The notes beneath the pieces are model-generated. The model worked only from the letters and a program-made list of their open reading frames with translations. It searched no databases and had not been told where the DNA came from. This document shows positions 383 through 55,312 of a stretch of DNA of 64,000 nt, in pieces (the stretch's first letter is position 1; the number at the start of each line of letters is the position of its first letter). The DNA lies in NCBI RefSeq assembly GCF_034009455.1, contig NZ_CP125380.1, forward strand, positions 3,795,501-3,859,500. Reading direction: 5' to 3'. This stretch comes from Pseudomonas sp. P5_109 (GTDB taxonomy: Bacteria > Pseudomonadota > Gammaproteobacteria > Pseudomonadales > Pseudomonadaceae). The position numbers and the translations under genes were made by a program.

Positions 383-2836
383 ATGCCTCAACTGCGTTTA
401 TTCACCGTTTTACTGATGCTCTGCCTGCTTCCGCTCAGCGGTACGCAGGCGGCACCCGCGCAACCCGCCCAACCACCCGCGACTCAGGCGCCGGCGGCCC
501 CCAGCTGGCCACAGGTGCTGGCTGCTGGCGACACCAAATTGACCATCTACCAGCCGCAACTGGACAGCTGGGACGGCTACACCCTGAACGCGCGGGCCGC
601 TGTGGAGGCCACGGGCACCGATGGCAAATCCACTTATGGCATCGTGCAGTTCAGCGCCCACACATTGGTCGACAAGGCCACTCGCTGGGTGGCGCTCGAC
701 CAGTACACCCTCACCAAGGCCGACTTCCCCGATAGCGCAACCAAGGCTGACAGCTGGGTCGCCGCGGTGAAGCAAGACGCCGAGAAGCGCACCAAAACCA
801 TTTCCCTGGACCAACTCGAAGCCGCGCTCGGCGTGATCGCCGCCGAGCAGAAGTCCAGCAGCGCGCCACTGGAAAATACTCCGCCGACGATTATTTCGTC
901 CGAGGTGCCAGCGTTGTTGGTGTACATCGATGGCGAACCCGCCTATCGCCCGGTTGATGGCACCTCGCTGCAACGGGTGATCAACACCCGGCCATTGCTG
1001 CTCAAGGACGCACAGGGCAAGCATTACCTGCACGTATTCGATGGCTGGATGGTCGCGGACAACCTGGGCGGGCAGTATGCGCCCCTGCCCTCGCCGTCCG
1101 CCGAGCTGGAAAAAGCCAAAAAAGACGCCATCCAGAGTCGCCAGGTGGACCTGCTGACAGGCCAGAGCGACCCGAAGGACAAGATACCGACGCTGGCCAA
1201 ACCGCCGATTCCGCAAATCTACATCGCCACGGTCCCGACCGAGCTGATCGTTACTGACGGCGCGCCCCAATGGCAGCCGATCCAGAACACCAAACTGCTG
1301 TATGTGACCAACACCACCGGGCATATTTTCAAGGAAATCGGCGATCAGGACAGCTATGTGCTGATCTCGGGACGCTGGTTCCGCGCCAGTGACATGAAAG
1401 GCCCCTGGACCTTTGTGGGCGCGGACAAACTACCCGCAGACTTCGCCAACATTCCCGATGACAGCCCCAAGGAAAACGTGAAAGCCTCGGTGGCCGGCAC
1501 CCCGCAGGCCAAGGAAGCCGCCATTGCCGCGACCATCCCGCAGACCTCGGCGATCAAGAAAAGCCAGGTAAAAATGAGCAAGCCGCCGATCGACGGCGAA
1601 CCGCAACTCAAGGCCATCCAGGGCACGCCCTTGCAATACGTGGTCAACAGCCCGATGCCGATCATCATGGTCGATGCACACAGCTGGTACGCGGTGGAGA
1701 ACGGTGTCTGGTTCGTCGCCACGTCGGTGCAAGGCCCCTGGGAGGTCGCCTCTTCAGTACCGGCGGTGATCTATTCGATTCCACCCAGTTCACCGATGCA
1801 CTACATCACTTACGTGAAAGTCTACGAAGCCAGCGGCGATACCGTCGTCGTCGGTTACACGCCGGGCTATCAGGGCTCGACACTGGACCCTGACAGCGGT
1901 GTGGTGGTGTATGGCACCGGTTATCCGTATACGCCGTGGGTGGGCAGTGTCTGGTACGGCCCGCCGGTGACCTATGGCTTTGGCGTGGCGATTCGCTACA
2001 CCCCGTGGACGGGCTGGACGTTCGGCTTCGGCTTCGGCTGGAGCTGGGGCGGCAGCACAGTCGCCGTCGGTTGGGGCTGGGGCGCCTATCCGTGGTGGGG
2101 CAATTACGGCTGGGGTTACGCCTGGGGGCCGCATCTGTACCCTGCGCCAATGCCTTGGGGCGGAGCCGCTTACGGCTATCATGGTGGCGCTGTCGCCTGG
2201 GGCCCCGGCGGCTGGGCCGGCACCACTGGCAACATCTACCGCCAGTGGGGCGACCGCGCTTCGGTCAGCCGCTACGGCGCCGGTTACAACGCCTGGACCG
2301 GTAATCGCTGGGCCGGCCAGGTTGGCGCCTCCTACAACTCGCGGACCGGCGTCGCCGCGGCAGGCCAGCGCGGCGCGGTACATAACGTCTATACCGGCAA
2401 CTACGCCGCTGGCCGCAGCGGCGTGGCCGTCGGTCCCGACGGTGGCGCCATTGCCGGCCAGCATGTGACGGCCGGCAACGTTCGCACCGGCACCCAGGTC
2501 AGCGCCAATCGCGGTGCCGTCTACAATCCCAATACTGGCAACACCACTCAATACGGCGGCATCCATGATCGCAACGGCGGCGTGGCGCATGTCGGCGACA
2601 ACGTGTACGCCGGCCATGATGGCAACGTTTACAAGCGGACCGACAGCGGCTGGCAATCCATGGTCCAGGGCGGTGCAACCCGTGCCGCCCCAGCCAATAC
2701 CAGCCAGGTGCAGAATCTCAATCGTGAGTACGATGCCCGCTCCTTCGGCAATGATCGCTTCAACAATTTCCACAATTCTTCCCAGGTGATGAATCACTCC
2801 TTCGGTGGTGGCGGTGGAGGCTTCCACCGCCGCTGA
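383..2836 (+). CDS. Secreted Trp/Tyr/Gly-rich protein with three repeated modules
   Basis: Unrecognised function; similar proteins are sometimes labelled carbohydrate-binding. I chose the ATG at 383 because GGAG lies 7 nt upstream and the next residues form a signal peptide (MPQLRLFTVLLMLCLLPL, then SGTQA), giving 817 aa; an in-frame ATG at 326 lacks this. Three related modules of about 50 residues lie near 185-235, 294-345 and 405-456. Each has an N-terminal P-x-x-x-T-x-L, a Y/R-V-x-N-T/S strand and a W-F/M...G-P/Q-W/Y end. Residues about 500-610 are extremely rich in Trp, Gly and Tyr. Residues about 620-760 hold degenerate Y/H-N-x-x-T-G-N/V repeats, and the tail is FGGGGGGFHRR. The protein is probably exported to the periplasm or surface. 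It appears monocistronic. Confidence 0.8.
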   Translation: MPQLRLFTVLLMLCLLPLSGTQAAPAQPAQPPATQAPAAPSWPQVLAAGDTKLTIYQPQLDSWDGYTLNARAAVEATGTDGKSTYGIVQFSAHTLVDKATRWVALDQYTLTKADFPDSATKADSWVAAVKQDAEKRTKTISLDQLEAALGVIAAEQKSSSAPLENTPPTIISSEVPALLVYIDGEPAYRPVDGTSLQRVINTRPLLLKDAQGKHYLHVFDGWMVADNLGGQYAPLPSPSAELEKAKKDAIQSRQVDLLTGQSDPKDKIPTLAKPPIPQIYIATVPTELIVTDGAPQWQPIQNTKLLYVTNTTGHIFKEIGDQDSYVLISGRWFRASDMKGPWTFVGADKLPADFANIPDDSPKENVKASVAGTPQAKEAAIAATIPQTSAIKKSQVKMSKPPIDGEPQLKAIQGTPLQYVVNSPMPIIMVDAHSWYAVENGVWFVATSVQGPWEVASSVPAVIYSIPPSSPMHYITYVKVYEASGDTVVVGYTPGYQGSTLDPDSGVVVYGTGYPYTPWVGSVWYGPPVTYGFGVAIRYTPWTGWTFGFGFGWSWGGSTVAVGWGWGAYPWWGNYGWGYAWGPHLYPAPMPWGGAAYGYHGGAVAWGPGGWAGTTGNIYRQWGDRASVSRYGAGYNAWTGNRWAGQVGASYNSRTGVAAAGQRGAVHNVYTGNYAAGRSGVAVGPDGGAIAGQHVTAGNVRTGTQVSANRGAVYNPNTGNTTQYGGIHDRNGGVAHVGDNVYAGHDGNVYKRTDSGWQSMVQGGATRAAPANTSQVQNLNREYDARSFGNDRFNNFHNSSQVMNHSFGGGGGGFHRR

Positions 2837-2940
2837 AGAAACCCGGCAAGCTGAAATGACGACTGGCCTTGCGCCAGTCGTTGCGCTACAAATCCTGTTC
2901 TACCGTCCCTGCCCTGTTTCAACGTCGGAGAACACAGCAC

Positions 2941-4008
2941 ATGAACCAATGGCCAGATACCCGCATTCTTGACCTGCTCGGGATCGAACTGCCGATCATC
3001 CAGGGACCGATGGCCGGTGCCACGAATTCGGCCATGGTGATTGCAGCCAGCAATGCCGGTGGCCTGGGTTCGATGCCGGCGGCGATGCTCAGCACCGATC
3101 AACTGCGCGAAGAGCTGAAAACCATCCGCCAGCACACCCAGCGCCCGATCAATGTCAATTTCTTCTGCCATCAACCTCCAGCCCCTGACGAGCAACGCGC
3201 GCTGGACTGGAAAAACCTGCTGCAGCCGTACTACCAGGAACTCGGCGCCGATTTCGCTGCGCCAACCCCCGTGTCCAACCGGGCGCCGTTCGATAATGCG
3301 GCCTGCGAAGTGGTCGAGGAATTTCGCCCCGAAGTGGTGAGTTTCCACTTTGGCCTGCCGGAAAAATCCCTGCTCGACCGGGTCAAGGCCACCGGTGCGA
3401 AAGTGCTGTCCTCGGCCACCACCGTCGCCGAAGCCGTGTGGCTGGAGGAGCATGGTTGCGATGCAATCATTGCCATGGGTTTTGAGGCCGGTGGCCATCG
3501 CGGGATGTTTCTCAGCGATGACCTGAGTAGCCAGGTGGGGACTTTCGCCCTGGTGCCGCAAGTCGTCGATGCCGTGAAAGTGCCGGTGATTGCCGCCGGC
3601 GGCATCGCTGACGCCCGAGGCGTCGCCGCTGCCTTCATGCTGGGCGCTTCGGCGGTGCAGGTGGGTACGGCCTACCTGTTCACGCCTGAGGCCAAGGTCA
3701 GCCCGTCCCATCACAAAGCGTTGCGTACCGCCAAGGAAAGCGAGACGGCGGTCACCAACGTGTTCACCGGTCGCCCGGCCCGGGGCATCCTCAATCGAGT
3801 GATGCGTGAACTGGGGCCGATGAGCGCCAAGGCTCCGGCCTTCCCCCTTGCCGGTGGCGCGCTGATGCCGTTGCGGGCCAAGGACGAAGCGGATTTCAGC
3901 AACCTTTGGGCCGGCCAGGCATTTACCCTCGGAGCCGAATTGACCACCGCGGCACTGACCCGGCAACTGGCTGAGGAAGGATTGGCGAGACTGCTACGTC
4001 GCCCCTGA
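2941..4008 (+). CDS. NAD(P)H-dependent flavin oxidoreductase, nitronate monooxygenase-like
   Basis: A 355-aa FMN TIM-barrel protein. It would oxidise alkyl nitronates, or act as a related FMN/NAD(P)H oxidase, in the cytosol. Visible family marks are LLGIELPIIQGPMAG near the N-terminus, SNAGGLGSMPAAM, VSFHFGLP, the GFEAGGHRG phosphate-binding loop, PVIAAGGIADARG and GASAVQVGTAYLF. The ATG at 2941 follows CGGAGAACACAGCAC, a clear ribosome-binding site; an in-frame start at 2869 would add residues unlike the family N-terminus. It stands alone, with a regulatory stretch after it that belongs to modA. Substrate specificity within this broad family cannot be told from sequence. Confidence 0.85.
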   Translation: MNQWPDTRILDLLGIELPIIQGPMAGATNSAMVIAASNAGGLGSMPAAMLSTDQLREELKTIRQHTQRPINVNFFCHQPPAPDEQRALDWKNLLQPYYQELGADFAAPTPVSNRAPFDNAACEVVEEFRPEVVSFHFGLPEKSLLDRVKATGAKVLSSATTVAEAVWLEEHGCDAIIAMGFEAGGHRGMFLSDDLSSQVGTFALVPQVVDAVKVPVIAAGGIADARGVAAAFMLGASAVQVGTAYLFTPEAKVSPSHHKALRTAKESETAVTNVFTGRPARGILNRVMRELGPMSAKAPAFPLAGGALMPLRAKDEADFSNLWAGQAFTLGAELTTAALTRQLAEEGLARLLRRP

Positions 4009-15372: not shown

Positions 15373-15459
15373 TGGTGCCCGAAGCCGGAATCGAACCGGC
15401 ACGCCCTTACGAGCGGGGGATTTTAAGTCCCATGCGTCTACCAGTTTCGCCATTCGGGC
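15373..15459 (-). tRNA. tRNA-Leu (anticodon TAA)
   Basis: The 87-nt cloverleaf reads GCCCGAA at the 5' end and pairs with TTCGGGC before ACCA. Anticodon loop CTTAAAA gives TAA. The long variable arm (CCCCCGCTCGTAAGGGCGT) is as expected for a leucine tRNA. TTCGATTC T-arm loop present and CCA encoded. Third in the minus-strand order after tRNA-Gly and tRNA-Cys. Confidence 0.95.
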
Positions 15460-15604
15460 GGTAGCGCGGTGAAGCGTCGAGTTTTTGCCAAACAACGATC
15501 TGGCAGTTCTGACGCTTGTGCAGCAGAGGTGGAAATATATACATCCCGCCCCAGTGAAGCAAGTTCGCAAATAGCCTTTTCAAATCTAAATCTTGCAGGC
15601 TACT

Positions 15605-15645
15605 GCAAATAAAAAAGCTCCGTAAATCATAGATCTACGGAGCTT
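15605..15645 (-). terminator. Terminator between tRNA-Cys and tRNA-Leu
   Basis: On the minus strand, AAGCTCCGTAG and TTTACGGAGCTT form a long stem followed by a U-run (CTTTTTTATTT). Its position implies that tRNA-Leu may have a separate promoter. Confidence 0.7.
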
Positions 15646-15654
15646 GTTTATTAG

Positions 15655-15728
15655 TGGAGGCCGAGGTCGGAATCGAACCGGCGTAGGCGGATTTGCAATC
15701 CGCTGCATAACCATTTTGCTACTCGGCC
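15655..15728 (-). tRNA. tRNA-Cys (anticodon GCA)
   Basis: A 74-nt cloverleaf starting GGCCGAG, with acceptor partner CTCGGCC and encoded CCA. Anticodon loop TTGCAAA gives GCA. T-arm loop TTCGATTC is standard. Confidence 0.95.
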
Positions 15729-15774
15729 TCAAAACATTTGTTGTCAGTAGCGCGACATCAAATGCGTGCAAACT

Positions 15775-15850
<76 letters not shown>

Positions 15851-20463: not shown

Positions 20464-20592
20464 ATGTTCAACGCCCTCTTACAGCTTCGTACCGCCAGCG
20501 CCCTGCGCTCGGTTGCGGCTGCCCGGGTGAATGACGGTTGTGCTCCGGTCAGCTTTTATTTTGGGTATTGGTTTAGCCACTGGCGCGCCTGA
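20464..20592 (+). CDS. Leader peptide 1 of the DAHP synthase gene, aromatic-rich (42 aa)
   Basis: A short frame with a good ribosome-binding site (CGGAGACAGACC, then ATG). It encodes 42 residues; residues 31-40 are FYFGYWFSHW, with three Phe, two Tyr and two Trp in ten positions, just before the stop. A strong terminator starts 48 nt after the stop and a DAHP synthase gene lies beyond. This is the classic architecture of ribosome-mediated attenuation: stalling on scarce Phe/Tyr/Trp-tRNA would alter RNA folding and allow read-through. Control is inferred; family precedent is pheA, trpE and pheST leaders in enterobacteria. Confidence 0.7.
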   Translation: MFNALLQLRTASALRSVAAARVNDGCAPVSFYFGYWFSHWRA

Positions 20593-20639
20593 TACCCACA
20601 CGGCGCCCACTTTTAACGGGTCGCCACCAGAGAATTCTC

Positions 20640-20678
20640 AACCCCCGGTCGGCCTCCCGACCGGGGGTTTTGTTTTTT
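20640..20678 (+). terminator. Attenuator terminator upstream of DAHP synthase
   Basis: AACCCCCGGTC and GACCGGGGGTT form an 11-bp perfect stem with an 8-nt loop, followed by TTTTGTTTTTT. It sits between leader peptide 1 and leader peptide 2. A small palindrome GAGAATTCTC directly precedes it. Confidence 0.85.
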
Positions 20679-46593: not shown

Positions 46594-46881
46594 CAGGATG
46601 TGAGGGGAATGTGAGGAGGATTGAAATTTGTTTTGAATCAGAGGGATGCGTGCAGACAGAAAAAAGCGTTACCAAACGCACGGGCAGGCAGACGCTACCG
46701 TTGGCTACAAGAGGCGGGTATGTGGTTCACAACCGGGCGCCCATTGCCCCATTCCAGGCAGAACCTGCGAGCCAGTGCAGTTCATTGGACAACCCCCCAT
46801 CCGACTGCTTTATTCAATGTTCAAGTGATAACCGGTCTTAACAGCCGCGTCGCTTCGGCGTGCGCAGTCCCAGGAGGGTTC
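46594..46881. other. Divergent intergenic region before the nfr-type operon
   Basis: Part of a 370-bp gap between the importer (minus) and wecB (plus). No strong sigma-70 promoter or named operator for the plus-strand operon was found. An open frame that crosses the gap (from 46621) is simply the upstream extension of wecB and has no ribosome-binding site. Confidence 0.4.
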
Positions 46882-48036
46882 ATGTCATTCAAAGTCATGA
46901 TGGTTTTCGGCACACGTCCGGAGGCCATCAAGATGGCGCCGCTGGCTCGGGTCCTGCGTAACTGGCCCGGTATTGATCTGAACATCTGCTCCACCGGCCA
47001 GCACCGGGAAATGCTCAAGCAAGTGCTCGACTCTTTCGAATTGGTGGTCGACGAAGACTTGCAGGTGATGACCCAGGGCCAGACGCTCAATGGCCTCTCC
47101 GAACAATTGCTGGCGCATCTCGACAAAGCCTACGAGCGAGTGCAGCCGGACATCGTGCTGGTGCACGGCGACACCACCACCAGTTTCATTGCCGCCCTCG
47201 CCGCCTTCAATCGCCAGATACCCATCGGCCATGTCGAGGCCGGCTTGCGTACCGGCAATTTGCGCGCACCCTGGCCGGAGGAAGCCAACCGGCACCTGAC
47301 CGGCGTTATCGCCGACCTGCATTTCGCTCCGACCACCAAGAGCGAAGACAACCTGCTGCGCGAAGGTGTGCCCAAGGCCAATATCGAAGTGACCGGCAAT
47401 ACCGTGATCGACGCCCTGGTATGGATGCGCGACCACCAACAGGCGAGCCAGTGGCACCCGGCCAGTGACTCGCCACTTGCCGTGCTCGACGACAGCCGGC
47501 GCATGGTGCTGATCACCGGGCACCGGCGGGAAAATTTCGGCGGTGGCTTCCGCAATATCTGCCTGGCGTTGGCCACCCTCGCCCAGCGCTATCCCGACGT
47601 GCAGTTCGTCTACCCGGTGCACCTCAACCCACAGGTGCAAAACGCGGTGTACAGCGTGCTGTCGGACAAGCCCAACATCTATCTGGTGGCACCGCAGGAC
47701 TACCAGCATTTCGTCTGGCTGATGGGGCGTGCGTACTTCATCCTCAGCGATTCCGGCGGCATCCAGGAGGAAGCCCCGGCCATCGGCAAACCGCTGCTGG
47801 TGCTGCGCGATGTCACGGAGCGGCCATCGGTGCTCGAAGGCGGAACGGTGCTGCTGGTGGGCACCGACACCGACCGGATCGTCAAGGAGTCCTGCCTGTT
47901 GCTCGATGACCAGGCCACGTTCCAGCGCATGAGCCGTATCCATAGCCCGTACGGCGACGGCCACGCCAGCGAACGGATCGCCAATCGTCTCGGCGTCTGG
48001 CTCAAACATCGCGCGGCCTCGGGAAAAGCCGTATGA
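46882..48036 (+). CDS. wecB: UDP-N-acetylglucosamine 2-epimerase (non-hydrolysing)
   Basis: A 384-aa cytosolic enzyme that interconverts UDP-GlcNAc and UDP-ManNAc. MVFGTRPEAIKMAPLARVL, IVLVHGDTTTSFIAALAAFN, IGHVEAGLRTGN, ITGHRRENFGGGF and LSDSGGIQEEAPAIGKPLL are the family's substrate-binding and catalytic blocks. The ATG at 46882 has CAGGAGGGTTC before it. It opens a five-gene run; its stop overlaps the nfrB ATG (ATGA). In this context it should supply UDP-ManNAc to the NfrB glycosyltransferase rather than to a capsule or ECA locus, none of which is nearby. Confidence 0.93.
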   Translation: MSFKVMMVFGTRPEAIKMAPLARVLRNWPGIDLNICSTGQHREMLKQVLDSFELVVDEDLQVMTQGQTLNGLSEQLLAHLDKAYERVQPDIVLVHGDTTTSFIAALAAFNRQIPIGHVEAGLRTGNLRAPWPEEANRHLTGVIADLHFAPTTKSEDNLLREGVPKANIEVTGNTVIDALVWMRDHQQASQWHPASDSPLAVLDDSRRMVLITGHRRENFGGGFRNICLALATLAQRYPDVQFVYPVHLNPQVQNAVYSVLSDKPNIYLVAPQDYQHFVWLMGRAYFILSDSGGIQEEAPAIGKPLLVLRDVTERPSVLEGGTVLLVGTDTDRIVKESCLLLDDQATFQRMSRIHSPYGDGHASERIANRLGVWLKHRAASGKAV

Positions 48037-50207
48037 GCCTGGAGCTGGTCGATTTTTTTGCCTACGTGCTGTTCGGACTCAAATACCTCGCGATTATCCT
48101 CGCCCTGCTGATGTTCATTCTCGGGCTCGATGACCTGTTCATCGACCTGGTGTACTGGACCCGCAAACTGATCCGGCGCTGGCGGATCTATGAAAAATTC
48201 GAGCGCGCCGATGAAGAGCGGCTGTACACCATCGGCGAAAAACCCCTGGCGATCATGGTGCCGGCGTGGAACGAAGTCGGCGTGGTCGGTGAAATGGCGC
48301 GCCTGGCCGCCTCGACCATCGATTACGAGAACTACCAGATTTTCGTCGGCACCTACCCCAACGACGCCGAGACCCAGGCCGACGTCGATGCCGTTTGCCT
48401 GCACTATCCCAACGTGCACAAGGTGGTATGCGCCCGCCCCGGCCCGACCAGCAAGGCCGACTGCCTGAACAACGTGATCGACGCCATCCTGCGTTTTGAA
48501 AGCGATGCAAAGATCCAGTTCGCCGGCTTCATCCTGCACGATGCCGAGGACGTGATTTCGCCCATGGAGTTGCGCCTGTTCAACTACCTGCTGCCGGCCA
48601 AGGACCTGATCCAGATTCCGGTCTACCCCTACGCGCCGGAATGGAAAGGCTTCACCGCCGGGCACTACGTCGACGAATTCGCCGAGAACCACGGCAAGGA
48701 CGTCATCGTGCGCGAAGCGCTGACCGGGCAAGTGCCCAGCGCCGGCGTCGGCACCTGCTTCAGCCGCAAGGCGATCAGTGCCCTGCTCGAGGACGGTGAC
48801 GGTATCGCCTTCGACGTGCAGAGCCTGACCGAAGACTACGACATCGGTTTTCGCCTCAAGCAAAAAGGCATGAAGTGCATCTTCGCCCGCTATTCGGTGA
48901 CCGATCCGAAATTGGCGCTGGAGCAGCCCTGGGTGTTCGGCATGAACCGCGCTTTCTCCCAGGTGATCTGCGTGCGCGAGCACTTTCCCCGGGACTTGCA
49001 GCACGCGATCCGGCAGAAGTCGCGCTGGATCGTCGGCATCGTGTTCCAGGGCACCAAGAACCTCGGCTGGAGCCCCAAGGGCCTGCTCAATTATTTCCTG
49101 TGGCGCGACCGTCGCGGCTTGATTGCGTACCTGTTGAGTTTCCTCGTCAATCTACTGTTCGTGGTGCTGTTGGCCATGTGGCTGGTGACGGTGATTTCAC
49201 CGAACGCCTGGCGTTATCCGTCGATCCTTGCCGGCAGTTCGCTGCTGACGACCTTGCTCTGGCTCAATGGCCTGATGCTGCTCAATCGGTTGTTCCAGCG
49301 CGGCTGGTTCGTCACCCGCTATTACGGTCTGGTCGAAGGGCTGCTGTCCGCCCCGCGAATGATGTGGAGCAACTTCGTCAACTTCTTCGCCAACCTGCGC
49401 GCGCTGCGTCAGGTCATGGAGATGGGCGACTCACGCCGCGTGGCCTGGGACAAGACCACCCACGAATTCCCCGCCTTGACCCAGGCCCAGCGCACCCCGC
49501 TCGGGCATCGACTGGTGGAAAAAGGTTTGCTGAGCGAAGAGCAGCTGGAAGCGGCGGTGACCAACCCTGTGCGTCGGCGCCTGGGTCGTGAACTGCTGCT
49601 GCGCGGGCACATCGACACCACGCAGCTTGTGCAAGAGCTGGCAGAACAACTGGACCTGGAGTGGGCACCGCTGAATCCGTTCAAACTCGACCAGCACCTG
49701 ATCGCTGCAGTACCCCGCAAGATTGCCACGCACTACGGTGTGCTGCCGGTTGCCGAGGAAGGCGACACCCTGGTGCTGGCGTCCGAAGGCCCGGTGAGCC
49801 AGGTGTCCCTCGGCGCCATCAGCCGTCAACTGAAGCGCCCGGTGCGTTGCCGCCTTGCGCCACAAGGCCGGGTGACGCTGGGGATCCGTTACTGGTACGC
49901 CAGCCCTCGTCAAAGCGAAGAAGTCCATCGGATGCTCGAGGTGCTTGAGCAACATCAGGACGACGAAGACCTGATCGAGCGCGTCAGCCACCACCAGGTG
50001 CTGCTGGGCAATCTGTTGCAAGTACGCGGCATGGTGCCGCCAACCCTGTTCAATCAGGCGTTGATCGATTTCGATGCGGAAAAAATGTCACTGGGCGAAC
50101 ACTTGATAGAACGCGGCATGATCACTCGGGAAGTCCTCGAACAAGCCCTGGCCGATCAGGCCAGCGAACAACAGGCGGCTTACCGCATTGCCCGGGAGGT
50201 CGCATGA
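48033..50207 (+). CDS. nfrB: NfrB-like membrane glycosyltransferase with MshEN-type c-di-GMP domain
   Basis: A 724-aa inner-membrane protein. The GT2 core carries LAIMVPAWNEVGVVGEMARL, FILHDAEDVISPMELR, SLTEDYDIGFRLKQ and QKSRWIVGIV (the D-D-TED-QxxRW series of processive synthases). Hydrophobic segments lie at about 11-32, 363-388 and 397-420. The C-terminal roughly 240 residues repeat an L-G-x-x-L-x-x-x-G-h-x4-L pattern four times (near 487, 513, 655, 684), the MshEN c-di-GMP-binding type. E. coli NfrB has this plan and polymerises a ManNAc glycan on c-di-GMP. Overlaps wecB and nfrA by 4 bp each. Confidence 0.88.
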   Translation: MSLELVDFFAYVLFGLKYLAIILALLMFILGLDDLFIDLVYWTRKLIRRWRIYEKFERADEERLYTIGEKPLAIMVPAWNEVGVVGEMARLAASTIDYENYQIFVGTYPNDAETQADVDAVCLHYPNVHKVVCARPGPTSKADCLNNVIDAILRFESDAKIQFAGFILHDAEDVISPMELRLFNYLLPAKDLIQIPVYPYAPEWKGFTAGHYVDEFAENHGKDVIVREALTGQVPSAGVGTCFSRKAISALLEDGDGIAFDVQSLTEDYDIGFRLKQKGMKCIFARYSVTDPKLALEQPWVFGMNRAFSQVICVREHFPRDLQHAIRQKSRWIVGIVFQGTKNLGWSPKGLLNYFLWRDRRGLIAYLLSFLVNLLFVVLLAMWLVTVISPNAWRYPSILAGSSLLTTLLWLNGLMLLNRLFQRGWFVTRYYGLVEGLLSAPRMMWSNFVNFFANLRALRQVMEMGDSRRVAWDKTTHEFPALTQAQRTPLGHRLVEKGLLSEEQLEAAVTNPVRRRLGRELLLRGHIDTTQLVQELAEQLDLEWAPLNPFKLDQHLIAAVPRKIATHYGVLPVAEEGDTLVLASEGPVSQVSLGAISRQLKRPVRCRLAPQGRVTLGIRYWYASPRQSEEVHRMLEVLEQHQDDEDLIERVSHHQVLLGNLLQVRGMVPPTLFNQALIDFDAEKMSLGEHLIERGMITREVLEQALADQASEQQAAYRIAREVA

Positions 50208-53200
50208 CAGCCGGCCACCGCTACACCCTTTTACTGGGCAGCCTGCTGCTGAGCCTGAGTTCGGCCACTGCTGTGCACGCCGAACCGCTGACCGAGTTCG
50301 AGCAGTTTCGCAGTTATCCCTACATGGACCGCAGCTACCGTGAGGCGAAAAAAGGCAACTGGGGCGAAGTCGAAAAGTTGATGCGTCATCTGCTGAGCAA
50401 GGTGCCGAACAACGATGAAGCGCGGGCGCTGCTGGTGCAATCACTGGCCAGGCAACGACGCTACAAGGAAGCCGTGCAGGCGTTGCCCGACAATTCGGCC
50501 AACAGCGACGCGCTGCTCAACCTGCGCCTGACCTGGATCGAACAGGACCCGCCCGGCAGCGACCAGGTGGAACAGTGGATCGCCACCAGTAACCTCAATC
50601 AGCGCATCCGTTTGTGGCAGGCCTACAGCCTGAGCCTGGCCAAATTCGGCGGCGCGGCGCGTGCCCATGACTGGCTGGCGCACCTGGCGCCCAAGGGCGA
50701 TGAACGCATCCTGCACCTGGCCCGGGCCAACTGGTCCGAGCAGTTGCACGACTGGAACGGCACCATCGAGCAATTGGCTCCGCTTGCCGCGAAGAACCAG
50801 CTCGACGCGCAAGGCTGGGAACGATTGGCCAACGCCTACGTGCAACGCCTCGACGAGCAACCCTTGCAGCAATTGCTACTAACAGCGCCCAGTCCGCAGG
50901 CCGCGCGCAAGGCTCGCCTGGCTATGATCGACCGGGCGATCGCCATGGGTCACACCCAGCAGGCGCAACGCTGGATGCAATCGCTGCCGCCCGCCGACCT
51001 TGCCGATCCGACGCAACGCCAGCGTCTGTGGGAACTGGCGCGGCAAACCGGTGACAGCGCCACGGTGCAACGCTTGAGCGCCGAGTTGCAGCGGCCGTGC
51101 CTGGAGACCGCCGACTGGCTGTCTCGCCGTGATCCGCAAGCGGCGCTGACCCAGTTGAAAGGTTGTCAGCCCGAAGAAAATCCGCAAACGTGGCTGGTCC
51201 TCGCCCAGCGCCTGCAAGCCACCGACCTGCTACAAGAGACCCGTCTGCCAGAGCCTTGGGACACGCGACGTCGCGAACAGTTGCTCGACGTCTGGCAGGG
51301 TGAAGGCCGCAGCGACAAAATCATGGCCTACCTCGCCAGCCAGCCGCAGACCGCCGACGTGGTCAAGCGTCGCGCTGAACTGCTCCAGGCATCGGATCAC
51401 GATACCGAAGCGGCGGCATTCTGGGAGCGGCATTACCAGCAGACCGGCAACCTCAACTCGCTTGATCAGGCGACCTACCTGGCGCTGAAAGCCGGCCAGC
51501 GGGAACATGCGCAACAGTTGCTCGAGAACGCCTACGACCGCCACGGCGGCAAGCTGCCGACGCCCCTGCTGCAACGGTTGGCGGGGTTGTATGCCGCCTC
51601 GACACCGACCGCGGCACAACAGCAACGCATCGCTTCACTGCTCAACCGCGTCGATCCCGCCACCCGCGGACAATTGCTGGCGCAATTGGCGGAAAACGGC
51701 CAGTGCGGCGCGGTTCAACAGGCGATTGGCGATCATCCGCAAGCAGCGGGTGATTACCGCGCCCTCGGTCGCTGTGCAATGCCCGAGCGTCCCGGCGAAG
51801 CGGTGGTGTACTACCAGACCGCCGAAAAACTGGGTGACCGAAACAGTCGCCTGCCACTGGCCTACGCCCTGGAAGCCGCCGGCGATTCGGCCGGTGCCCT
51901 GGCCATCTGGCGCAGCATTCCGGACGCCGAACTCAGCGACAATGCCCGCCTCACTGCCAGCCGCGGCGCCCTGAACATCGGCGACACGCAAACGGCCGAA
52001 CGCTACTGGCAACTGAGCCGCACCCGTGGTGCCAATGAGTGGACGTTGGGCGCGGCGATTGCCGATGCCCGGGGCGATCACGCGCTCGCACTGCAACGCC
52101 AGCGTTCCGCCCTGCAGCTGGTACCGGATGCCGAGCATTACTATGCGGCTTCGGTCACGGCGCAAAAGGCCGGCGAGCTGCAACAAAGTACCGAATGGCT
52201 GGCCGAGGCCGTGCGTCGCGATCCGGCCAACCCCCGTTATCGCGCCGACTACGGCGTGCGCTTGGCCGGTGCCGAGACCAAGGCTGAACGTGCCCGCGCC
52301 ATCCCGTACCTGCAACGCGCCATCCAGGACTTCCCGGAAGACTATCGCCTCGGCGAAACCCTGGCCTGGCGGTATGACGAGGTCGAGGACAGCGCCTCGG
52401 CGCGCAAGGAACTGGAACGCGTGATCGACCTGGAACAAAACCCGGTCGCGGCCGACGACGAGGACGGCAGCATGGAAGCCCGGCGCTATCGCCAGCGGCG
52501 CGCCCATGAATCCCTGTCCCGGCGCGATACCCTGACCTTCGCCAGTACCTGGTCGCCGGCAGGGGTTTCGACCAACGACTTCGTGCGGCCCGACGAAAGC
52601 ACCGGTACTCGACGGCGCACGACCTCGCAGAACGTGCAACTGGCCATGTGGGACCATGCGCTCGGCGAAGAACCGAGCCGCGCTGGCAGTTCGCTGTCGG
52701 CCTACGGACGGGTGCTGCTCGGCGGCCAGAGTCGCTCCAGTTATGCAGAGTCCGTCGCCACCGGCGTGGGCCTGCGCTACAAGCCCTGGGGTACGGCCAA
52801 CATCAACTTCTACGGCGAGGTCTACAAGCAAAGCCAGTTCAATGATCAGGACAACCACGGCTTGAGCCTCGGCCAGATGCTGATCCCCGACAAGGTCAAC
52901 GACCAGGCTGAGGATCATCGTGAGGATGGGCACACCACCACGGACTACCTCCTGCGCGCTACGGCGTCGTTCCTCGATCAGGGGCGTTATCGCAACGACT
53001 GGCGCGTCGACGAAAGCGATTGGGAAGAACGTTTTCTCTATCTCGACGCGGCATGGTGGACCAAGGCCGGCGACCATCAATGGTTGTCGCGTTTCCAGCA
53101 AGGACACACCTGGAAACTGCCGTTCAACAGCGCACAAACGCTCATGCCGTACGGCTTTCTCGAGTTTGCCAGCCAGGACCCGAGCAACGACTGGCGCCAG

Positions 53201-53368
53201 GACCTGCGCACCGGCCTGGGCCTGCGCTGGCAATGGTGGTTCAACGACAATGTCTACAACGCCTATCGCGCGCACCTGACGGTCCGCACCGAGTATCAGC
53301 AATCATTGGGCGGGAATCTGTATGAAAGCGCCAATGGCGTGCTGCTGGGCGTGGAGTTGAATTTCTGA
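50204..53368 (+). CDS. nfrA: NfrA-like outer-membrane protein (TPR plus C-terminal barrel)
   Basis: A 1054-aa exported protein. Signal peptide MTAGHRYTLLLGSLLLSLSS, cut near VHA. Residues about 40-800 are helical TPR-like repeats rich in Leu/Ala/Gln (NNDEARALLVQSLARQRRYK, TYLALKAGQREHAQQLLENA). The last ~250 residues are beta-rich and end in GVLLGVELNF, a terminal-Phe outer-membrane signature, like BcsC or PgaA exporters. E. coli NfrA (990 aa) is the phage N4 receptor and part of the same secretion system. ATGA overlap with nfrB; TGATG overlap with the next gene. Confidence 0.87.
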   Translation: MTAGHRYTLLLGSLLLSLSSATAVHAEPLTEFEQFRSYPYMDRSYREAKKGNWGEVEKLMRHLLSKVPNNDEARALLVQSLARQRRYKEAVQALPDNSANSDALLNLRLTWIEQDPPGSDQVEQWIATSNLNQRIRLWQAYSLSLAKFGGAARAHDWLAHLAPKGDERILHLARANWSEQLHDWNGTIEQLAPLAAKNQLDAQGWERLANAYVQRLDEQPLQQLLLTAPSPQAARKARLAMIDRAIAMGHTQQAQRWMQSLPPADLADPTQRQRLWELARQTGDSATVQRLSAELQRPCLETADWLSRRDPQAALTQLKGCQPEENPQTWLVLAQRLQATDLLQETRLPEPWDTRRREQLLDVWQGEGRSDKIMAYLASQPQTADVVKRRAELLQASDHDTEAAAFWERHYQQTGNLNSLDQATYLALKAGQREHAQQLLENAYDRHGGKLPTPLLQRLAGLYAASTPTAAQQQRIASLLNRVDPATRGQLLAQLAENGQCGAVQQAIGDHPQAAGDYRALGRCAMPERPGEAVVYYQTAEKLGDRNSRLPLAYALEAAGDSAGALAIWRSIPDAELSDNARLTASRGALNIGDTQTAERYWQLSRTRGANEWTLGAAIADARGDHALALQRQRSALQLVPDAEHYYAASVTAQKAGELQQSTEWLAEAVRRDPANPRYRADYGVRLAGAETKAERARAIPYLQRAIQDFPEDYRLGETLAWRYDEVEDSASARKELERVIDLEQNPVAADDEDGSMEARRYRQRRAHESLSRRDTLTFASTWSPAGVSTNDFVRPDESTGTRRRTTSQNVQLAMWDHALGEEPSRAGSSLSAYGRVLLGGQSRSSYAESVATGVGLRYKPWGTANINFYGEVYKQSQFNDQDNHGLSLGQMLIPDKVNDQAEDHREDGHTTTDYLLRATASFLDQGRYRNDWRVDESDWEERFLYLDAAWWTKAGDHQWLSRFQQGHTWKLPFNSAQTLMPYGFLEFASQDPSNDWRQDLRTGLGLRWQWWFNDNVYNAYRAHLTVRTEYQQSLGGNLYESANGVLLGVELNF

Positions 53369-54246
53369 TGAGCCGACTATTACTGGCCTTGTGCGTGCTG
53401 CTGGGCGGCGTGACGGCCCATGCCGACGAGCGGATTTTCTATCAGCCACTCAATGCCGATGCCAACCTGAGCCAGGCGCAATGGCTGCGCATCTGGCAGG
53501 ACACCGCCCGCCAGGGCGCGCACACGGTGATCGTGCAATGGACGGCCTACGGCGACTCCGACTTCGGCGGCGCCAATGGCTGGCTCGCCGGCAGCCTCAA
53601 ACTCGCCAGGGCCCAAGGCCTGAATCTGGTACTGGGGCTGCGCATGGACCCGGCCTATTACCAGCGCATCAATGAACTGGACAGCGCCGGGCTGGCAACC
53701 TACTGGCAGACGCAACTGGGGCAGTCGCTGGCCCGCCAGCAGACACTGCGCAAAGAGTGGAAACTCCCGGTCAGCGGCTGGTACCTGCCCATGGAGCTGG
53801 ATGACCTGCACTTTCTGCCGCTCGATCGCCGGCAAACGCTGCAACGCCAGCTCAAGGACTTTTCCGCCAGGCTCGACGCGCCGCTGCACATCAGCGTGTT
53901 CAACGTCGGCAAACTTGCGCCACAGGTCAATGGCCAGTGGCTGGGCGAATTGGCCAACGCCGGGATCCAGGTGTGGTGGCAGGACGGCGCCGGCACCGGG
54001 CGCTTGCCACTGCTGGTTCGCAACGGCTATGCCGATGCACTGCCCTGCTCCATCGGTATCGTCAGGGAAGCGTTCCGGCAAACCAGCACGGCCGGGCAAC
54101 CCTTCCGTGCCGAATCGATGCCCCCGCAAACCGCATCGCCGGGTTGCCACCCGACGTCGGTTTTCTCCCTGCGCTACCGACCCTGGGGTAAGGTGATTCT
54201 CGACAACCAGCACAGCAGCAAGGTCGGCGATGTACAAAACCATTGA
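53368..54246 (+). CDS. YbcH-like (DUF4434-type) periplasmic protein
   Basis: A 292-aa protein with signal peptide MSRLLLALCVLLGGVTAHA. The mature part looks like a TIM-barrel glycosidase-type fold: ERIFYQPLNADANLSQAQWL, TVIVQWTAYGDSDFGGANGW, LVLGLRMDPAYY, SGWYLPMELDDLHFL and HISVFNVGKLAPQVNGQWL. Acidic residues in QWTAYGD and PMELDD could be catalytic. Size and place after nfrA match E. coli YbcH, which sits beside nfrAB. It may trim, modify or process the exported glycan. Function inferred. It overlaps the next gene by 17 bp. Confidence 0.78.
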   Translation: MSRLLLALCVLLGGVTAHADERIFYQPLNADANLSQAQWLRIWQDTARQGAHTVIVQWTAYGDSDFGGANGWLAGSLKLARAQGLNLVLGLRMDPAYYQRINELDSAGLATYWQTQLGQSLARQQTLRKEWKLPVSGWYLPMELDDLHFLPLDRRQTLQRQLKDFSARLDAPLHISVFNVGKLAPQVNGQWLGELANAGIQVWWQDGAGTGRLPLLVRNGYADALPCSIGIVREAFRQTSTAGQPFRAESMPPQTASPGCHPTSVFSLRYRPWGKVILDNQHSSKVGDVQNH

Positions 54247-55312
54247 AGATGAAGTGCTGAAGAAATCGGCGCCGGCCAAGCTCAAGGCCGAATTTCTCCA
54301 GCATGAATTTGATCGGCTACGCACCTTTTGCGTAATGATCTACATCGCCAGCATTGCCGTCTGGATTGCCTACGACCTGATCCTCAGTTTCATCGGCGGA
54401 CAGCCAATCACCTGGCGTTCGCTGGTGTTTGTCGGTGTTGTTTCGATTCTCGTCATCATCCTGCGGTTGATCCGCGATGCCCGGCATTTCCAGAAGCTGA
54501 ACCTGCTGTTTGTATTCGCCATGGCTCTCGGCACGCGACTGCTGACCGAGGGCCTGTCCGGCGATCACCAACCCGCCTGGCTGTTGCTGGCGGCGTCGAC
54601 CACCCTGTTCACCGCCTCGGTACTGCCGCTGAGTCGCTGGTCATTCTTTGCCGCGCAGATCATCACCTGGTCGTTTCTCAACCCTTTTTACGACACAGGT
54701 ATCGAACACATGGAATTGAGGGGGGTGATGGCCGGCAGTTACTCGGCATTCATCTGCGGCCTGACCATCTACAGCTTCCTGACGTTGCGCAAAGCCAAGC
54801 TCTACAACTTCATCATGTCCAAGCTGTTGCTGGACCAGGCCTACATCGACACCCTCACCGAAATCCCCAATCGCCGCTCATTCATGACCCGCGTCAACCA
54901 GCAGTTGAACACTGTGCCACGGGAAAACGACCACTACCTGGCGATGGTCGATATCGACAACTTCAAGAAGGTCAACGACGTTTATGGCCATGACATTGGC
55001 GACGAGGTGCTCAAGCGCATCGCCCAGGACATCAAGTCGGTGATGTCTGACTACGAATATGCGCGGCTGGGTGGCGAGGAGTTCGCGATTTACCTGGCCG
55101 GCGTGCGCCATAAAGACGTCGAGGCGCTGGCAGGCGAGTTGTGTCGAGTGGTGCGCGAGCACCCCGGCAGCCACCCGGTGACCATCAGCATCGGCCTGGC
55201 CCGTGTGCTCGACGGCGACACGCTGAACCAGGCACTGGTCAAGGCCGATGAATCTTTGTATGAGTCAAAACATACCGGGAAGAATCGGTATACCTTTCAT
55301 CGTCAGGCTTGA
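54230..55312 (+). CDS. Membrane-bound diguanylate cyclase (GGDEF)
   Basis: A 360-aa protein. About five to six hydrophobic segments fill residues 30-200 (CVMIYIASIAVWIAYDLILS, VFVGVVSILVIILRLIRD), then the GGDEF domain (about 205-358): DTLTEIPNRRSFMTRV, MVDIDNFKKVNDVYGHDIGD, active site RLGGEEFAIYL and VTISIGLARV. An R-x-x-D inhibitory site is not found five residues before GGEEF, so product inhibition may be absent. The start overlaps the previous gene by 17 bp with AAGG upstream. By analogy with DgcJ, it would make c-di-GMP close to NfrB. No phosphodiesterase is in the operon. Confidence 0.9.
   Translation: MYKTIEDEVLKKSAPAKLKAEFLQHEFDRLRTFCVMIYIASIAVWIAYDLILSFIGGQPITWRSLVFVGVVSILVIILRLIRDARHFQKLNLLFVFAMALGTRLLTEGLSGDHQPAWLLLAASTTLFTASVLPLSRWSFFAAQIITWSFLNPFYDTGIEHMELRGVMAGSYSAFICGLTIYSFLTLRKAKLYNFIMSKLLLDQAYIDTLTEIPNRRSFMTRVNQQLNTVPRENDHYLAMVDIDNFKKVNDVYGHDIGDEVLKRIAQDIKSVMSDYEYARLGGEEFAIYLAGVRHKDVEALAGELCRVVREHPGSHPVTISIGLARVLDGDTLNQALVKADESLYESKHTGKNRYTFHRQA

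Follow-up and report, generated by a model that had tools for sequence, protein, structure and literature searches.

A five-gene nfr unit in Pseudomonas sp. P5_109

The DNA examined here is a 64,000-nucleotide stretch of the Pseudomonas sp. P5_109 genome (contig NZ_CP125380.1, positions 3,795,501 to 3,859,500; hereafter, the window), and our analysis concerns five plus-strand genes at positions 46882-55312 in the order wecB-nfrB-nfrA-ybcH (DUF4434)-dgc, the last of which encodes a GGDEF protein (Table 1). According to the open reading frame (ORF) list, adjacent genes overlap by 4, 4, 1, and 17 bp, in agreement with a preliminary description of this DNA, which had reported five genes in one direction with overlaps of 1-17 bp. 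The wecB frame sits inside a longer ORF of that list. The flanking genes on both sides lie on the minus strand and are apparently unrelated to the operon. Given their common upstream element, the five genes likely form one transcription unit.

Table 1. Coordinates of the operon genes and the upstream element (window positions)
Feature	Position	Strand	Description	Basis
Conserved cis-element TTGGACAA-N12-CTGCTT	46785..46810	+	71 nt before the wecB start	Alignment of upstream regions
wecB	46882..48036	+	Non-hydrolyzing UDP-N-acetylglucosamine (UDP-GlcNAc) 2-epimerase, 384 aa	PF02350, 376 bits; TIGR00236, 469.6 bits (cut-off 210)
nfrB	48033..50207	+	Processive inner-membrane glycosyltransferase family 2 (GT2) protein with C-terminal MshEN region, 724 aa	NF008411; PF05157
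nfrA	50204..53368	+	Putative outer-membrane exporter, tetratricopeptide repeats (TPR) and C-terminal NfrA_C, 1054 aa	PF13283
ybcH/DUF4434	53368..54246	+	Predicted periplasmic TIM-barrel protein, glycoside-hydrolase-like, 292 aa	Pfam DUF4434, 70.2 bits (cut-off 30)
dgc	54230..55312	+	GGEEF diguanylate cyclase (DGC), six-helix membrane N-terminal region, no RxxD, 360 aa	PF00990

Domain searches found GT2, MshEN, NfrA_C, and DUF4434, each over its Pfam cut-off, and on these profile matches the assignment of 46882-55312 to the Nfr/NGR kind of cyclic di-GMP (c-di-GMP)-activated polysaccharide system, already made in the preliminary description, appears sound. NfrB scored 1235 bits against the NCBIfam model NF008411 ("c-di-GMP-activated glycosyltransferase NfrB"; cut-off 1170) and 43.7 bits against the Pfam MshEN profile PF05157 (cut-off 23.1), NF053729 was likewise over its cut-off, and the best sequence match in the PDB was MshE (5HTL; residues 487-615; E = 2.9e-10). 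Among 16 NfrB positions compared in 88 sequences, including that of E. coli, 13 were invariant, one was kept in 87/88, and two were variable. The residues D170, D268, W332, L490, G491, G518, and L536, present in all 88, are the positions mutated in the E. coli papers cited below (E. coli D169, D267, W330, L490, G491, G519, and L537). E172 and E267 are equally invariant, and the DxD, TED, and QxxRW signatures of processive GT2 enzymes are present. The MshEN region that had been proposed for NfrB is thus supported by the profile match, the 5HTL match, and the conserved L490, G491, G518, and L536, and the protein is predicted to bind c-di-GMP.

NfrA combines TPR with a predicted NfrA_C outer-membrane domain, as judged by PF13283 (79.5 bits; cut-off 25) and TPR_19 (over its Pfam cut-off), and scores below the stricter NCBIfam cut-off of NF007302 (1103 versus 1223 bits). 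The GGDEF protein exceeds no NCBIfam equivalog cut-off and falls far short of the DgcJ model NF040885 (82.8 bits; cut-off 500). Its long helices are predicted at residues 16-54, 62-80, 84-106, 114-131, 136-150, and 163-205 (predicted local distance difference test score, 89.2; predicted template modeling score, 0.64), and the sixth runs on towards the GGEEF domain in the model. An alignment of 73 such proteins contains GGEEF in 72 and GGDEF in one, and the inhibitory RxxD site is absent from 72, the exception probably being the inverted gene of locus L123 described below; in a smaller alignment, GGEEF was invariant in 36. The catalytic motif is therefore intact, as expected for a putatively active DGC.

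YbcH scored just over the NF007404 cut-off (346 versus 344 bits), and its predicted model is a (beta/alpha)8 TIM barrel. Counted off the strand list of the model, Glu143 lies in strand 137-145 (strand 4) and Glu234 at the end of strand 230-234 (strand 7), the two strands that bear the catalytic acids in glycoside hydrolases of the TIM-barrel type. Both residues are invariant in 87/87 sequences, including that of E. coli, and recur in three 26-29%-identical proteins of a second Pseudomonas locus (see below). A fold search with the model returned mostly glycosidases as the closest folds by Z. A PDB sequence search with YbcH profiles gave nothing usable (best E of 0.5; a 33-residue match to a designed TIM barrel had an E of 0.003). 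Literature searches found no papers on DUF4434, and for YbcH, the sole result concerning the Nfr system, judged by its listing, was PMC8669469.

That paper (Junkermeier & Hengge 2021) and PMC8669472 (Sellner et al.) describe c-di-GMP binding by E. coli NfrB, the need for WecB, the specific cyclase DgcJ, which co-purifies with NfrB, and use of the system by phage N4. The chemistry of the NGR polymer is a proposal in both papers, and PMC8669469 terms YbcH a putative scaffold. The window resembles E. coli nfrBA-ybcH, wecB, and dgcJ in its NfrB equivalog, its GT2 and MshEN residues, the nfrB-nfrA-ybcH order, a WecB-family epimerase, and a GGDEF protein, with identities of 54% for NfrB, 25% for NfrA (best segment), and 31% for YbcH. 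However, the E. coli genes occupy three loci, whereas the five genes of the window are one unit, and E. coli DgcJ has a dCache domain, whereas the window DGC has a six-helix membrane region. Moreover, E. coli nfr is FliA-dependent (PMC8669469), whereas no FliA-like site was recognized by eye, against the consensus sequence, upstream of the window operon.

Linkage of wecB and a GGDEF gene to Pseudomonas nfr is already in print and is not new. Section 11 and Fig. 7 of PMC8669469 give a linked wecB in P. soli SJ10 and a GGDEF gene at nfrBA-ybcH in most pseudomonads, and the paper places nfrC/wecB beside nfrB where the genome has no other copy. In the sections and passages considered here, this account of Pseudomonas nfr concerns linkage only; the cis-element, the wecB substitution and the gene losses, the solo dgc and wecB genes, and the YbcH fold prediction are additions made here, all of them computational. 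Among the papers listed by our literature searches, mostly judged by record rather than full text, none was an experimental study of this Pseudomonas locus.

Linkage, gene losses, and the upstream element across the genus

We surveyed 398 Pseudomonas genomes and obtained 77 loci with the NfrB class of the window, 74 over the NfrB cut-off and three below it (1164, 1140, and 1083 bits). These loci hold wecB (scored as linked within 1500 bp) in 64 cases, nfrA in 77, ybcH in 75, and dgc in 62. Because 48 of the 77 hold all five genes together, the arrangement is not due to chance, and the conserved linkage anticipated in the preliminary description was recovered. In a separate set of named loci (the best 80 of the 172 found), the gene order recurs with some losses. 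Placement of the GT2 in another polymer family, a missing MshEN region, and a lack of conserved linkage, which had been named beforehand as signs against the Nfr assignment, were not encountered.

Of the two ybcH-less loci, L173 is a true loss, and L179 ends at a contig edge within ybcH, its dgc being located on another contig. In L173, ybcH is gone between nfrA and dgc (between positions 3825 and 4064), the one clear ybcH loss among the 77. Fifteen loci have no dgc, one of them at a contig end, which leaves 14 genomes without the gene. At L093 (16211-16570), dgc is reduced to a short GGDEF remnant at the usual site, and at L123 (16276-17349), no linked DGC was found and an inverted GGDEF gene with a 38% match is present.

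WecB was detected over its cut-off in all 77 genomes, including those without a linked gene. An unlinked WecB of more than 515 bits was present in 13/13 genomes without linked wecB versus 5/64 with it (Fisher, 4.7e-11), although this line was chosen after the scores had been seen and the Fisher values ignore kinship; at more than 400 bits, the contrast is weaker (13/13 versus 10/64; Fisher, 6e-9). The correlation rests on just two loss events: a quick NfrB tree puts one in a 12-member clade and the other in L209/G410, which retains a wecB remnant of about 35 residues. The window genome is among the five with both copies, its unlinked WecB adjoining a UDP-sugar dehydrogenase, a Wzc-type kinase, and a tyrosine phosphatase. 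In G410, the unlinked WecB lies near sugar-polymer genes, namely those for a Polysacc_synt_2 protein, a hexapeptide transferase, and an asparagine-synthase-like protein. This pattern is akin to that of E. coli, in which nfr draws on the WecB of the enterobacterial common antigen pathway. The description of the operon as self-contained was not borne out, since wecB is absent at 13/77 loci and the window genome encodes two more WecB-family proteins that score over the cut-off. A distant WecB-family gene of the window genome (251 bits; L233, C1:5215000-5231000) lies amid sugar-nucleotide and polymer genes. In L152 (P. guariconensis 20-MO00619-0), wecB is fragmented (2747-3604) and no other WecB over the cut-off was found; its operon may lack UDP-N-acetylmannosamine (UDP-ManNAc), making it a possible exception to the substitution pattern.

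The element upstream of the operon, present in nearly all loci of one clade, is a probable promoter or operator. Across the 77 loci, 14/14 positions are matched in 64, 13 in three, and 12, 11, and 10 in one each. The seven loci that lie outside the main clade match at 8-9 positions, compared with 7-11 for one base-shuffle per upstream region, and have neither dgc nor the element. Upstream of wecB, the element mostly stands 61-80 nt from the start (45 nt in two loci and 144 nt in one), and after wecB loss it precedes nfrB, by 66-102 nt in 12 loci and 235 nt in L209. It was weakened in 4/7 dgc-less loci inside the clade versus 2/62 with dgc (Fisher p = 0.0006, which is overstated because kinship is ignored and three of the seven loci are close kin).

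The window element is the only exact copy in its genome, and no wider regulon emerged there, as 64 matches at two or fewer mismatches were equaled by 64 for a reversed-pattern control. Exact copies occur in 89/396 genomes, compared with 14 hits for the reversed control among the matches listed. In 64 of the 89, the element is at nfr, and in 25 it is elsewhere; 13 of the latter were inspected, revealing six copies before dgc alone, three before wecB alone, two at operon scars (L239 and L243), and two (G104 and G017) near none of the five genes. Since the element precedes solo dgc or solo wecB in some genomes without the window nfrB, neither gene is exclusive to NfrB. Rfam gave no RNA-family match to the element, and a sigma-70-type scan of the upstream region gave 0 sites versus 2.1 in shuffles. 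Compared by eye with consensus sequences, the element fits neither sigma-54, FliA, nor AlgU, nor any other reading considered.

The DGC has a distribution of its own. Its membrane region was detected in 85/396 genomes (E of 1e-10 or better), 22 of which have no full-length NfrB of the window class; among these, G112 has nfrB fragments and G287 a shorter, class-three NfrB-like protein. The DGCs of all 22 keep GGEEF and lack RxxD, and one of them (L262) reads only 316 residues. L248 keeps wecB and dgc, and the three genes between them are gone. On a quick dgc tree, switches between the solo and linked states number at least five, and such repeated changes, together with the solo DGCs themselves, argue against exclusive dedication to NfrB. 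With a midpoint root, L240-L242 fall among nfr-linked sequences, consistent with erosion, and an eight-member solo clade could not be placed as old or derived; dgc may alternatively be an ancestral gene into which nfr was inserted.

Proposed polysaccharide system and its alternatives

We consider it quite probable that the locus encodes a synthase-dependent exopolysaccharide system of the Nfr/NGR kind. In this scheme, WecB would convert UDP-GlcNAc to UDP-ManNAc, which NfrB would polymerize at the inner membrane only with c-di-GMP in its MshEN region. The membrane DGC would supply c-di-GMP, probably on a signal sensed by its six-helix region. Export across the outer membrane would fall to NfrA, and YbcH, as a periplasmic TIM-barrel protein, would probably trim the chain; one upstream element would control the whole unit. 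AlgL, BcsZ, and PgaB trim the chain in other polysaccharide systems. The sugar identity of the polymer and signaling from the DGC to NfrB are inferences, as are the activity of YbcH and the promoter function of the element.

Several observations weigh against this scheme. The preliminary description had credited the operon with its own dedicated c-di-GMP source, a claim that does not stand as worded: in the 22 genomes without a full-length NfrB, the DGC also works without NfrB, and the 14 NfrB genomes without dgc indicate that c-di-GMP can come from elsewhere. Alternatively, the same polysaccharide system may include a DGC that acts globally or on a separate target and only shares the promoter, with NfrB reading the general c-di-GMP pool; six solo dgc genes right behind the element favor this alternative, as does the loss of dgc with NfrB intact in 7/70 loci of the dgc-bearing clade. 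It is nevertheless unlikely in our view, given the 17-bp overlap of dgc with ybcH in the window, the specific DgcJ partner of E. coli NfrB (PMC8669469), and the weakening of the element at dgc-less clade loci; the DGC of the window may be locally dedicated. The role of YbcH is not essential, because N4 can infect E. coli without ybcH, which is only partly needed for a motility effect (PMC8669469), and because L173 has lost the gene. YbcH may even be a catalytically dead TIM-barrel scaffold, which we find doubtful in view of Glu143 and Glu234, invariant and shared with the second-locus proteins, and of the glycosidases among its closest folds.

A polymer that is not based on ManNAc, with WecB serving another pathway and traveling with the operon by chance, has some appeal in that intact solo wecB stands behind the element in three genomes without the window nfrB class, indicating that wecB also works without NfrB, and in that the literature consulted gives no product for the Pseudomonas locus. 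We judge it improbable, since wecB is lost only where another high-scoring WecB exists (13/13, with L152 as a possible exception) and since E. coli genetics connects WecB to NfrB (PMC8669469 and PMC8669472). Within the proposed Nfr/NGR system, we tentatively suggest a joint reading, in which nfr would be a modular unit around a dedicated element; the element and the RxxD-less six-helix DGC would mark the same clade, loci would wear down in place to element plus dgc or element plus wecB, wecB would be dropped only where another pathway gives UDP-ManNAc, and YbcH would be a periplasmic NGR-polymer hydrolase.

The five-gene pseudomonad unit offers a compact setting in which to work out the NGR polymer, and the natural loss series makes it possible to test the need of the polymer for UDP-ManNAc and the local action of the neighboring DGC. 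The YbcH prediction offers a concrete enzyme assay and, if true, a tool to degrade and analyze the polymer.

Related loci, phages, and other features

Pseudomonas has a second Nfr-like locus (L037-L045); in L038 (1830-12546), the example examined in full, it contains wecB, a BcsB-like gene, a GT2 with MshEN, NfrA, AlgF, AlgX, and DUF4434. Its NfrB class (about 623-651 bits) occurs in 51/398 genomes, 2 of which also hold the window class. It is of the same kind as the Achromobacter and Simplicispira nfr clusters, which carry BcsB-like and/or O-acetyltransferase genes and share an NfrB-type synthase, NfrA, and WecB with the window, whereas neither a BcsB-like nor an acetyltransferase gene is present in the window operon. 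Unlike the window operon, L038 has no dgc within the run and an inverted GGDEF-type gene after it. A third, shorter NfrB class (about 553-577 bits; L046 and L047) occurs in 8/398 genomes, 3 of them also with the window class; L046 contains wecB, a GT2, an NfrA_C protein, and AlgX, and Pfam gives no MshEN in its synthase.

The Pseudomonas locus may serve as a phage receptor, by analogy with N4. For P. aeruginosa phage DEV, the reported receptors are O-antigen and LptD. N4 gp65 matches 118 of 50,697 phage records, 13 of them named Pseudomonas, and among the 60 matches listed, phage inbricus alone gives a full-length Pseudomonas match (54%). The NfrA barrel (residues 770-1054) shows no hypervariable stretch in 85 sequences biased to close kin. 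Its mean entropy is 0.67 versus 0.98 for the TPR part, with the highest 25-residue barrel block at 1.31 (876-900). A phage arms race on NfrA was therefore not seen, the barrel being less variable than the TPR part.

Elsewhere in the window, positions 15376-15850 and 20550-20667 hold three minus-strand tRNA genes and the Pseudomonas small RNA P15.
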